The notes beneath the pieces were generated by a model, which saw only the letters and a program-made list of their open reading frames with translations, had not been told where the DNA came from and made no database searches. A program made the position numbers and the translations under genes. Below, one piece after another: positions 17,301-21,023 of a DNA stretch of 64,000 nucleotides (positions are counted from its first letter, which is position 1; the number at the start of each line of letters is the position of its first letter). Source of the DNA: Bdellovibrionales bacterium (GTDB taxonomy: Bacteria > Bdellovibrionota > Bdellovibrionia > Bdellovibrionales > Bdellovibrionaceae); the NCBI GenBank assembly GCA_018266295.1, contig JAFEAQ010000004.1, forward strand, positions 310,001 to 374,000, given 5' to 3'.

Positions 17301-18314
17301 TTGTCTAAAAAAGACTACTATTCACTTTTAAACGTTGCCCGCTCAGCAACTGCGGATGAGATCAAAAAAGCTTACCGCAAGCTCGCGATGCAATATCACC
17401 CGGATAAAAATCCCGGCGATAAAAAGGCTGAAGAAAAGTTTAAAGAATTCTCTGAAGCTTACGAAGTGCTCAGCGATCCCAAAAAGCGCGAGATGTATGA
17501 CCAATTCGGTCATGCCGGCGCACAAGGTGGATTCGGTGGAGCTGGCGGTCCTTTTGGGGGCGCCGGTGGCTTTGGCGGATTCGGCGGTGGTGGCGGCGGT
17601 GCAGGCCAAGGCCAAGATCCATTCCAAGATATTTTCGGCGACGTATTCAGCGAGATCTTCGGAGCTCGCGGTTACAGTGGCGGCCCTGGTGCTGGCACTG
17701 GTGGTCCTCGCCGTCGTCAGCAAAAAGGGTCCGACCTTCGTTATACTTTGAATATCGCCTTTGAAGAATCTGCTCTCGGCACAGAGAAAGTGATCAGCTT
17801 TGTTCGTCAGCGCAATGGCAAAGACGAAACTGCAAAGCTCGCGGTCAATGTTCCTGCCGGCGTAAAAGAGGACCAACGTCTGAAGCTCGCAGGCGAGGGC
17901 GATAGTCCTGCTGGCGGCGGCGCTGCCGGCGATCTGTATGTCATAATCAAAATCCAAGACCATCCGCTATTTAAGCGCCAGGAAAACGATATCCTGATGG
18001 ATCTTCCTGTCACTTACACGGATGCTATTCTTGGGACTTCTGTGGAAATCCCGACTTTGTCTGGCAAAGCGGTGATTCGTATTCCTCCGGGAACGCACAC
18101 AGGACAGACCTTCCGGTTAAAGGGCAAAGGATTCCCTAAAATCGGTGGTTTTGGTTCCGGAGACATGATGGTTCGCCTGATTGTCGATACGCCAGAGAAA
18201 ATTAGTAATCGACAAAAAGAACTGCTCGAAGAACTTTCGAAAGCCGGCGATGAAACGCCGTTGGTAAAGGCCTTTAAAGAGAAGGCAGCAAACATCATGA
18301 GGAATAAAAAATGA
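17301..18314 (+). CDS. DnaJ-type co-chaperone lacking the zinc finger (class B, CbpA-like)
   Basis: This 337-residue Hsp40 stimulates DnaK ATPase and binds unfolded substrates. It has an N-terminal J-domain (about 4-68) with the HPD motif ([19 protein letters not shown]) and a Gly/Phe-rich linker (75-130), then directly two C-terminal substrate-binding beta domains (from [22 protein letters not shown]). The four CxxCxGxG repeats of class A DnaJ are absent, so it is a class B protein like CbpA. TTG at 17301 is the likely start, following GAGGAGCT. It lies 14 nt after grpE and overlaps the next lipoprotein gene by 4 nt. Confidence 0.93.
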
Positions 18315-20023
18315 GAAAAGGATTTCTAATTCTCTCTGCGCTGAGCTTGGCAGCGTGTGCCGGTGTGCAAACCAAAAGACCGGAACTTCAAGGCCAACAG
18401 CAACCACCGCAAAAAGGTCGCCCAGGCCAAATGCCGGTGATGACACAGGTGCCTGCTCCAGGCGGAAAGCAGGTCGGCGGCATGGGCCAGCAGCTTCCGC
18501 AGCAGCAACGCACAAACGCTGCGCGTGTGCGTGAGCTCGAAGCAGCCGGCGATTATATGCAAGCCCTTAAAGAGAGCGTGAACTTTTCTGTCAGCGCAAC
18601 CACTCCTCAAGAACAAGAATCTTTCAGACTCAAAAGTGTTGAAATCGTTGAAGGCAAATTGAATCAAGAGCAACTTGAAAAAGTCGCGCGCGATTCTGAT
18701 TTTGGCTTTGCTCGCGGTTACGCTCTTTTCCGTTTGGGTGAAATGTCGCTTGAAGACCGCGACAAAGAGCGCGCTAGAAAGTACTTCTCAAACGTTGGCG
18801 AGTTCTTACCGGGCAGTGATCTTGCTCTTCGCGCTCAGGATATTTTATCTCAACTTGAAAGCAGCAAATTTGTAGAATCTAAAACTATCGGTGTGGTTCT
18901 TCCTTTGACGGGCAAAGCCGCCTCGGTTGGTCAAAAAGCTTTGCGTGGCGTAGAAATGGGTCTAGGCCTCAACAACCCAGGCTCGGGCTTCCGTCTGGCT
19001 GTCATGGATAGCGAAGGCAATCCCGACAACGCACGCCGTGGCGTGGAACGCCTGGTAAAAGAAGATAATGCGATCGCAATTGTCGGTAGCCTTCTCAGCA
19101 AAACCGCTCCAGCCGTGGCCTCTAAAGCAGATGAGTTGGGTGTTCCCACCATCGGTCTTTCACAAAAGTCCGGTTTGACTGAGCTCGGCCCAACTGTTTT
19201 CCGTAACGCACTAACGAGCGAAATGCAGGTACGTTATCTCGTTCGCACCGCGATGGAAGACTACGGGATGAAACGTTTCGCCATCGTTTATCCAAACGAT
19301 CCTTACGGCATTGAGTACACAAACTTATTCTGGGATGAAGTCCTTGCACGTGGTGGAACGATTGCTTCTGCACAGGTTTACAATCCAAAAGAAACAGACT
19401 TCCGTTATGTGATTCAACGTCTTGTCGGCACTTACTACATTGAAGGCCGCGTAGATGAGTACAAAGCCCGTCTCGCTAAAATGAGTGAAGACTCTGACAA
19501 GAAAAAGAAATCCGTCCGGACCTCTCACGAAGAAGAAGTTTTACCACCCATTACAGATTTTGATGCTGTATTTATTCCAGACAGCGCAAAGGCTATGGGT
19601 CAAATCGCCGCCTTCCTTTCGTTCTCAGGCGTTAAGGGCGTAAAGCTCATGGGGACCAACCTATGGAATACCCCAGGCCTAGCTAAACGTGCCGGGAACT
19701 TCGTTAATAACCTTATTTTTGTAGATAGCTTCCTCCCTGCGACGGCGACTCATTCCCGCTTCGTTCAGGAGTATAAAGCGCTCTATAACGAAGAGCCTTC
19801 CCTGATTGAAATCCAAGCCTATGACTCCGCTTTGATTTTACGTCAGCTGGTCGCTCAAGGTGCGGCTACGCGTGAGTCTTTGACTCGTGAGCTGAGCTCG
19901 TTGAAAAAATTTCCAGGCGCATTAGGCACCCTGAATATGACTCAGGATCGCGAAGTTCAACGCCCTTTAATGGCACTGACGCTTGAAAAAGGCGAAGTTG
20001 TTCCATTAAAAATTCAAAAATAA
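18311..20023 (+). CDS. LpoA-like / periplasmic-binding-fold lipoprotein
   Basis: A 570-residue predicted lipoprotein: signal peptide [16 protein letters not shown] with lipobox L-A-A-C, lipidated Cys16. A Pro/Gln-rich linker (22-70) is followed by a helical, TPR-like region (75-180) and a type I periplasmic-binding fold (190-570) beginning [28 protein letters not shown]. Tandem TPR plus substrate-binding fold on a lipid anchor is the architecture of LpoA, the outer-membrane activator of PBP1A. Sequence similarity to ABC-type Leu/Ile/Val receptors is equally visible, so the role is inferred from layout. A charged insertion ([18 protein letters not shown]) sits near 395-410. The start overlaps the dnaJ stop by 4 nt. 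Confidence 0.83.
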
Positions 20024-20037
20024 TTTTTCCGCTAACC

Positions 20038-20108
20038 GGCCCCCTAGGAGCGACTGTCCTAGTCCTCAACAGTGTGAATGAACACACTGAATCATTAGAG
20101 AGGGGGCC
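20038..20108 (+). promoter_or_regulatory. Three-way-junction-like leader burying the SD of the first TraR/DksA gene
   Basis: GGCCCCCT (20038-20045) pairs perfectly with AGGGGGCC (20101-20108), an 8-bp GC stem that includes the ribosome-binding purines and ends 2 nt before the ATG at 20111. Inside are two further hairpins: CTAGGA/TCCTAG (20044-20062, whose first two bases compete with the outer stem) and CAGTGTG/CACACTG (20070-20089). No U-run follows, so a terminator is unlikely. It looks like a structured 5' leader. Confidence 0.55.
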
Positions 20109-20110
20109 TT

Positions 20111-20485
20111 ATGAACACGCATTTATCACCACAAACAATCGCAGAGTGCAGAAAAAAATTGATCTCGATGAGACAAGATTTGCTCAATCGTGTTCGTATG
20201 GCACAACTCGACTTTGGGCATGTTGAGAAAAGCAGTGGTGACGAGGTTGATCAAACCGTTGCTCAACTTGCCGAAAATCATTTTCTCATTGCGCAAGAAA
20301 GAATGCGCACACAGCTCATCGAAATAGACCAAGCGCTTGCACGTATTGAGAATGGCACTTACGGAATCTGTGAAGAAACCGAAGAACCAATCGAAACAGA
20401 ACGTCTTTTCGCAGTGCCATGGACTCGTCTCAGCATTGAAGGTGCTGAAATTCAAGAAGCTATGACACGCAAGTTCGCGCGCTAG
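20111..20485 (+). CDS. TraR/DksA-family protein without an intact zinc finger
   Basis: A 124-residue member of the TraR/DksA family, which bind the RNA polymerase secondary channel and alter transcription, often with ppGpp. The N-terminal coiled coil (about 6-90) carries an acidic tip, SSGDEVDQTVAQ, similar to the DxxDxA tip of DksA. The C-terminal segment ENGTYGICEETEEPIETERLFAVPWTRLSIEGAE aligns with the zinc-finger region, but only one of the four cysteines remains, so zinc binding is not expected. Cysteine-less DksA paralogues are known (DksA2 type). It is followed by a second paralogue with all four cysteines. The ATG is preceded by a structured leader. Confidence 0.88.
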   Translation: MNTHLSPQTIAECRKKLISMRQDLLNRVRMAQLDFGHVEKSSGDEVDQTVAQLAENHFLIAQERMRTQLIEIDQALARIENGTYGICEETEEPIETERLFAVPWTRLSIEGAEIQEAMTRKFAR

Positions 20486-20520: not shown

Positions 20521-20552
20521 GTGCTGAGAGTTTTAGCACTACACTTTTTTTT
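20521..20552 (+). terminator. Probable weak intrinsic terminator
   Basis: GTGCT (20521-20525) pairs with AGCAC (20535-20539) and eight Ts follow at 20545-20552 after a 5-nt offset. The short stem and the offset make it weak. With the hairpin at 20486-20504 it separates the two TraR/DksA genes. Confidence 0.4.
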
Positions 20553-20569
20553 GATGACACCAAATCATT

Positions 20570-20655
20570 CCTTCGTAAGATGCACTCAGTTTTCGGCCAA
20601 GGATCATCCTTAAGTTTTTTGTTTTGAAGTGATTCATTCAGTGAGCTTACGAAGG
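20570..20655 (+). promoter_or_regulatory. Long-range inverted repeat burying the SD of the second TraR/DksA gene
   Basis: CCTTCGTAAG (20570-20579) is a perfect 10-bp complement of CTTACGAAGG (20646-20655). CACT/AGTG inside the loop can extend the stem across a small internal loop, and AAGGA/TCCTT forms an inner hairpin. The SD of the next gene (GAAGGGGG, ATG at 20664) overlaps the 3' arm. It resembles the leader of the paralogue upstream in layout but not in sequence. Confidence 0.5.
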
Positions 20656-20663
20656 GGGTAAAG

Positions 20664-21023
20664 ATGAACTCAACCGAACTCAGCGCAATCAGAGAGTCTC
20701 TCCTTTCACAGAAGAGTGCTATTCTGAACAAAACGAGCGAGTTTAAGCAAGAGCAGTCCAAGACTGTCACGGTATCCGATGAGGCCGAGGCTGCTTCCAT
20801 AGATTTATCAAACAACATCTCTATTCATTTGCATGAAAGAGATCGCACTTCATTATTCATGATTGAGCGTGCTCTCGGAAAAATTTCCGAAGGGACTTAC
20901 GGCCAGTGTGAATGTTGCGGCGGTTCCATCAATCCTCGACGTCTTCAAGCTAGACCTTTTACCACTATGTGCATTGAGTGCATGGAGGACCAAGAGGATC
21001 TACGTAATTCCTACCAACAATAG
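20664..21023 (+). CDS. TraR/DksA-family zinc-finger transcription regulator
   Basis: A 119-residue DksA/TraR-type protein that should bind in the RNA polymerase secondary channel. The N-terminal coiled coil runs to about residue 80, with a tip SDEAEAAS where the usual DxxDxA reads DxxExA. The C-terminal zinc finger is complete: GQCECCGG, then RRLQARPFTTMCIECMED, giving two CxxC pairs. It is shorter than E. coli DksA (151), closer to the DksA-like proteins of deltaproteobacteria. The SD GAAGGGGG is placed well for the ATG but lies in a long inverted repeat. No partner gene follows closely; lon is 166 nt downstream. Confidence 0.9.
   Translation: MNSTELSAIRESLLSQKSAILNKTSEFKQEQSKTVTVSDEAEAASIDLSNNISIHLHERDRTSLFMIERALGKISEGTYGQCECCGGSINPRRLQARPFTTMCIECMEDQEDLRNSYQQ

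Follow-up and report, generated by a model that had tools for sequence, protein, structure and literature searches.

The window analysed here is a stretch of 64,000 nucleotides from a Bdellovibrionales bacterium (contig JAFEAQ010000004.1), and all features described below lie on its forward strand. A gene for a periplasmic-binding-protein/LppC-like lipoprotein of 570 aa (18311–20023; an ORF matching PF13458 at E 5.5e-41 and PF04348 at E 1.9e-9, and kept in relatives) is followed by a first DksA/TraR-family gene of 124 aa (20111–20485), which matches PF01258 at E 2.2e-8 and TIGR02420 at E 7.8e-17 with 61.7 bits, below the cut-off of 115.5. Beyond it come a hairpin that resembles an intrinsic terminator and is followed by a long T run (20521–20552, recognized from the sequence), a second DksA/TraR-family gene of 119 aa (20664–21023; an ORF with family profile matches) and lon. 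The order lipoprotein, first DksA/TraR, second DksA/TraR, lon is widely kept among relatives, some loci lacking the second DksA/TraR gene or showing only part of this order. By eye, the first DksA/TraR protein has a single cysteine left in its zinc-finger region (GICEETEEPIE), and the second has two CxxC pairs.

The 73 nt directly upstream of the first DksA/TraR gene (20038–20110) form a strong predicted fold. The initial annotation had described here a perfect 8-bp stem that includes the Shine-Dalgarno sequence (SD) and encloses two hairpins, a junction 2 nt before the ATG and no U-run, and each of these elements was found in its place. Specifically, GGCCCCCT (20038–20045) pairs with AGGGGGCC (20101–20108) over 8 bp with 0 mismatches, the SD GGGGG (20102–20106) sits within the 3' arm of this closing stem, the ATG begins at 20111, 2 nt beyond it, the enclosed hairpins span 20048–20067 and 20070–20089, and a U-run is missing from the whole of 20038–20110. 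The minimum free energy is -34.0 kcal/mol (z -5.05), whereas dinucleotide shuffles averaged -19.05 ± 2.96 and 0/200 were as stable; a wider fold of 20000–20180 gave z -2.40, with 6/200 shuffles equally stable. Among the 37 genes with a usable SD, out of 56 called by script in the window, the first DksA/TraR gene has the least accessible SD (0.000 vs a median of 0.35).

A conserved promoter-like motif and its candidate sigma factor

The comparison of leaders was based on searches for the protein in 66 genomes of the family and in genome contigs, the latter giving 67 loci. Their neighbourhood set orthologues apart from a paralogue with another kind of upstream region, giving 78 loci with a lipoprotein or lon neighbour, 74 of which supplied non-identical leaders with 130 nt upstream; L003 (same place as L001), L177 (no start codon found), a duplicate of L002, and G047:C83 and G056:C143 (contig start or fragmentary) were left out. 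A motif of approximately TTAACC-N18-GTCTWA precedes the gene in 70/74 of these leaders, 65 by a strict pattern of (C/T)TAACC, 17–19 nt and then (G/A/C)TC, and 5 by a looser match; the four leaders that do not carry it are L004, L028, L030 and L038. The blocks are 18 nt apart in 60 of the 65 strict matches, 19 nt in 4 and 17 nt in 1, and the second block (-10) and the ATG are separated by 18 to 92 nt, depending on the orthologue leader. With this near-fixed block spacing and variable distance to the gene, the motif behaves as a promoter, not as an RNA fold. A single fixed pattern occurred in 60/74 orthologue leaders, with 0.19 expected in shuffles and 1/74 for the backward pattern, and in 0/108 leaders of homologues outside this neighbourhood, a control set consisting mostly of the paralogue with some distant homologues. 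Many of the paralogue leaders (among L006–L053), which were read but not counted, have in common another conserved promoter-like block, at the end of which a near-palindrome, AGTTCCAAATTGGCACT, covers the likely start and is possibly an operator.

In the window, the putative ECF-type promoter comprises a -35 element CTAACC at 20032–20037 (TAACC in 65/65 spacing-18 leaders, which were picked by a pattern containing TAACC), an 18-nt spacer at 20038–20055 placed by the spacing comparison, and a -10 element GTCCTA at 20056–20061 (G in 54 and the last-position A in 60 of the 65 spacing-18 leaders). Transcription would start at about A20068 (20066–20070), as judged from the distance to the -10 element, a C at the fifth position after it in 54/65 leaders and the modelled SD accessibility. 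Since 20032–20061 matches the conserved promoter-like motif, it is improbable that the 73 nt form one RNA leader; the single structured leader of the initial annotation is thus real as a fold and probably not as one transcript. The left hairpin (20048–20067) is built from spacer, -10 and initiation region, and is absent from the consensus fold of 24 genus-level leaders.

The same N18 motif was found just upstream of 48/58 orthologues of one ECF sigma gene (orthologues were present in 58/66 genomes at E ≤ 1e-60), with six more having N17 or N19, for a total of 54, and four having none. At the 48 N18 loci, it starts 25 to 89 nt ahead of the aligned ECF gene start; translation of the ECF gene in the window's genome likely begins at the sixth codon. 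Autoregulated ECF promoters usually look like this, with AACC and GTC blocks about 18 nt apart just before the SD and start of the ECF gene. Because the motif sits before the ECF sigma gene as well, it is very probably the autoregulated promoter of that sigma factor. In turn, this sigma factor is probably the orthologue of Bd0743 of B. bacteriovorus, an ECF (Group IV, RpoE-like) sigma factor that has been tied to chaperone control, the classical E. coli RpoE consensus being reported as lacking (Lambert et al. 2012, PMC3464611). Read by eye, the genus orthologues match in region 4 the Bd0743 residues listed in Table 1 of that paper (R, F, N, P, D, T, K, A, A, M, K, R plus a 4-residue insertion, assumed to be NYRH), with the difference that at one listed position the window genome's own ECF protein carries K in place of N; this comparison covered the orthologues of the motif-bearing ECF sigma alone, in a genome whose ECF sigmas give seven PF08281 matches. 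Neither a TTAACC-N18-GTCTWA promoter nor a DksA/TraR target was found in the portion of PMC3464611 considered here.

The exact pattern occurs at one site in the window's genome, at the first DksA/TraR gene (backward control, 6), and with one mismatch allowed at 58 sites vs 124 backward, one of the 58 abutting the ECF sigma gene. Over the 66 genomes there was no genome-wide enrichment (172 sites vs 173 backward); as the motif is no commoner than its backward control, the regulon seen by the exact motif is small. A scan of 29 of the 58 one-mismatch loci (L230–L258) for an SD-bearing gene close downstream found one, a second lon gene (L234); the second lon also lies behind an exact motif in one other genome (L213). 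Other genes observed behind the motif were a SpoVR-like gene directly downstream in two genomes (L208, which matches PF04293, and L210), secreted-looking small proteins of 72–86 aa (L196, L202, L204, L207) and a group of 64-aa proteins (L212, L214, L216). Of the small motif-linked proteins, the two members scanned (L204, L214) gave no Pfam match.

Predicted accessibility of the ribosome site in long and short RNA

The stop codon of the lipoprotein gene lies 8 nt before the -35 element in the window (median 29 nt in the genus set), and a terminator-like site between that stop and the ATG is absent from the window and present in 6/68 leaders. With so short a stop-to-promoter gap and so few terminator-like sites, RNA reading through from upstream is likely, its presumed source being the lipoprotein gene. 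The 5' arm of the closing stem (20038–20045) coincides with the first 8 nt of the promoter spacer, so promoter-started RNA would lack it and only upstream-started RNA would carry it. In the model at 37 °C, RNA reading in from 20024 had an unpaired probability of 0.000 at the SD; all starts in 20066–20070 gave 0.55, and starts at 20062–20064 just 0.05–0.24. The ATG of the first DksA/TraR gene was predicted to be more paired in the short RNA (0.17 unpaired vs 0.59 in the long). The short mRNA is predicted to begin with a 5'-terminal hairpin, CAGTGTG-AATGAA-CACACTG (20070–20089); such a first hairpin was predicted in 24/24 genus-level short leaders, in which stems and sequences differ, and these short RNAs were not unusually stable (mean z -1.27).

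The analysis was extended to the 70 motif-bearing leaders, divided into a “genus” set of 24 (L001 plus 23/24 genomes of genus g4, spanning the window genus and a Bdellovibrio-like genus) and 46 others, which include G025 (L113) and of which some are close relatives of each other. For read-through RNA, mean SD accessibility was 0.04 in the genus set (24/24 <0.3) and 0.26 in the others (27/46 <0.3). For short RNA, the means were 0.38 and 0.52, respectively, with values still <0.3 in 4/24 and 6/46, and the gain of short over long exceeded 0.3 in 17/24 and 24/46. The long RNAs had a mean stability z of -4.0 in the genus set (24/24 below -2) and of -1.9 in the 41 others scored (17 below -2), 5/46 being too short for scoring. 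According to these models, the window genus and the Bdellovibrio-like genus both preserve SD burial in read-through RNA. The claim of the initial annotation that the ribosome-binding site is hidden thus stands, in the model, for RNA entering from upstream, with the SD buried in 24/24 genus-level leaders, and not for promoter-started RNA, which lacks the 5' arm. Six leaders of four other motif genes (second lon, SpoVR, 64-aa, 79-aa) gave long-RNA accessibilities of 0.41–0.55, calculated over a stretch around the SD wider than the SD six-mer used elsewhere; one of the second-lon leaders (L213) also partly closes in long RNA (0.43 vs 0.68).

Evidence for selection and competing explanations

Across all 70 leaders, a leader's own arm paired with its own SD better than did swapped arms (z -6.5; genus p 0.012, others p 0.0002). 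In the genus set, the energies were -20.4 kcal/mol for own and -19.3 kcal/mol for swapped pairs, and p rose to 0.022, 0.15 and 0.16 when the set was thinned to 19, 10 (<75% identity) and 5 (<60%) leaders; p remained ≤0.0005 when the others were thinned to 39–45 leaders. These p values overstate independence because the 24 genus leaders share ancestry. Replacement of the spacer raised mean SD accessibility from 0.185 to 0.245 with shuffled spacers (p 9e-6), to 0.237 with the spacers of other orthologues (p 1e-4) and to 0.363 with those of the ECF loci (p 2.5e-10), the 34 ECF spacers having been picked by pattern, so that a few may not be real promoter spacers. For the others alone, the effect was weak with shuffled (p 0.046) and orthologue spacers (p 0.16) and strong with ECF spacers (p 2.5e-6). 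In the window leader, 0/100 spacer shuffles closed the SD as well as the native spacer. Contiguous helices of ≥7 bp were present in 22/24 genus leaders, compared with 86% of swapped pairs (p 0.045), and in 16/46 others, compared with 37% of swapped pairs (p 0.15).

The consensus fold given by RNAalifold for the 24 genus leaders lacked the closing stem and had 6 pairs at -1.53 kcal/mol, with a covariation term of -0.25 and one pair changed on both sides. The alignment used follows the promoter, while the arm slides relative to it; the missing column-wise stem is read here as the result of this sliding, yet it counts against a conserved RNA stem. The conservation in relatives on which the initial annotation was to be judged is therefore divided, SD burial being kept in the genus and the closing stem missing from the RNAalifold consensus, so that only the own-versus-swapped comparisons argue for this stem. 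Taken together, selection for SD burial in these genera is likely, not proved, and a lock beyond them is uncertain.

The explanation that competes most closely is that the promoter alone is functional, the complementarity to the SD being a by-product of a C-rich spacer beside a G-rich SD, with read-through rare or irrelevant. The weak lock signal outside the genus, the lack of column-wise covariation, genus swapped pairs nearly as strong as own ones and the terminator-like site in the gap of a few relatives all agree with this. However, most ECF-locus spacers are not C-rich, and the SD would be more open with them in place, so the promoter itself does not demand a C-rich spacer. Moreover, the SD is buried in 24/24 genus-level leaders despite differing arm register and flanking pairs, whereas the six leaders of the four other motif genes have the long-RNA values given above. 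On balance this explanation appears unlikely, at somewhat more than one chance in four by our reckoning of the evidence.

Two further explanations concern the nature of the conserved blocks and of the fold. The blocks could form a two-part operator for a regulator common to the ECF and DksA/TraR genes instead of a sigma promoter, in keeping with the few genomic sites, the absence of genome-wide enrichment and a sigma dependence deduced from sequence; this is very unlikely given that the AACC/GTC arrangement before an ECF gene has the usual look described above and that the conserved C follows the -10 element at promoter distance. Still less probable is a cis-regulatory RNA proper acting on one long leader, whether a thermosensor, a riboswitch or an autoregulatory site for DksA/TraR or another protein. 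RNA thermometers and riboswitches can mask an SD by pairing near the ATG, and the present element resembles them in this pairing, in its strong fold and in an SD burial that is kept in the genus, but differs in having no melting range in the model, no Rfam match and a structure interrupted by a promoter-like motif. The SD was 0.000–0.001 unpaired at 20 to 45 °C and 0.014 at 70 °C, so that the thermosensor put forward by the initial annotation is not borne out by the model. Its suggestion of a small riboswitch also fell away, with no Rfam match at gathering score (at E ≤ 1, a single chance-level snoRNA match on the opposite strand) and with the conserved blocks upstream of the inferred start. 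Furthermore, blocks of near-fixed spacing also precede an unrelated gene, that of the ECF sigma, and the -10-to-ATG distance is as variable as noted above, neither of which fits a single regulatory leader. Of the suggestions in the initial annotation, a protein-binding site is the one that may still apply, although the 5' hairpin predicted in all 24 genus-level short leaders differs in sequence among them.

Proposed mechanism and comparison with known systems

The reading favored here, to which we give a probability of roughly 60%, is that the element is a promoter-embedded lock on the ribosome site, most translation of the gene coming from RNA of its own stress promoter. The region 20032–20061 would be a promoter recognized by the autoregulated ECF sigma that is probably the Bd0743 orthologue, an assignment strongly supported by the comparison of sequences. 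Because this promoter follows the lipoprotein stop after an 8-nt gap that has no terminator, upstream RNA could run through it. In such read-through RNA, the spacer is predicted to pair with the SD and close the start site, a folding prediction kept in the genus, so little DksA/TraR-like protein would be made from it. Under an active ECF sigma, transcripts would begin near 20068 with the 5' arm untranscribed, carrying a small 5' hairpin and leaving the SD available. As the SD would be free just in promoter-started RNA, translation would occur mainly from the stress promoter.

The leader of the second DksA/TraR gene (20552–20663) offers a possible parallel. It contains a promoter-like site made of TGATGACA (20552–20559) and TAAGAT (20576–20581), which is no commoner than chance (1 site vs 1.6 expected in the region). 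Inside this site (20552–20581) lies the 5' arm CCTTCGTAAG (20570–20579) of an analogous predicted stem, whose 3' arm CTTACGAAGG (20646–20655) reaches into the second gene's SD. In the model, SD accessibility rose from 0.10 in RNA begun at 20540 to 0.46 in RNA begun at 20588, and with just 84 nt upstream, which excludes the 5' arm, the SD was open (0.44). The whole fold was not unusual (z -1.12, 27/200 shuffles as stable). Among relatives, 9 loci had no start and 55 gave second leaders, 44 of them with a TGAC element and 42 used, including L083 and L089, in which a wrong site was probably caught; own arms outperformed swapped ones in these 42 leaders (z -4.3), with p 0.11 for 21 genus leaders and p 0.0096 for 21 others. 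A TTTTTTGATGACA-like block is common to the second leaders of many relatives. These data are suggestive only of a similar lock plan with a different promoter-like sequence. A broader version, in which isoform-gated translation is built into the locus, with spacers carrying an anti-SD and used on two tandem DksA/TraR genes with different promoters, thereby guarding the regulator from leak out of a chaperone or lipoprotein gene, is proposed tentatively, at odds of about one in three.

The analysis provides a concrete promoter consensus and the first predicted targets for an RpoE-like sigma factor of predatory bacteria, for which the portion of PMC3464611 considered here gives none. It also advises caution, as folding an intergenic region as a single leader can mislead when a promoter lies inside it. 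The open-access literature listings searched showed nothing pertinent on such a bacterial lock or on this motif.

The nearest precedent is gene e (lysozyme) of phage T4, which by analogy of plan is of the same kind. In T4 gene e, soc, 49 and I-TevI, the ribosome-binding site is sequestered in early read-through RNA, and in gene e the late promoter sits in the DNA from which the 5' strand of the helix is transcribed, with a measured 100-fold effect, as described in the part of PMC3014915 considered here. The two systems, as far as that part of the source describes the phage gene, would share an SD held in a helix of upstream-started RNA, an alternative-sigma promoter that encodes the 5' strand, and promoter-started RNA that does not contain this strand. 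For the present locus, folding places the SD in a helix of the modelled read-through RNA and the 5' strand inside the assigned promoter. They differ in that the T4 arrangement depends on phage gp55 and its effect has been measured (same source), whereas here a DksA/TraR-like gene on a bacterial chromosome would be served by an ECF-type sigma with an effect deduced from models, and in that SD burial is kept here in the 24 genus-level leaders examined. The locus offers a testable bacterial-chromosome counterpart of the T4 gene e arrangement, in which the same DNA would serve as promoter spacer for one transcript and as translational lock in the other, and a chromosomal, ECF-driven, DksA/TraR form of this plan would be new.
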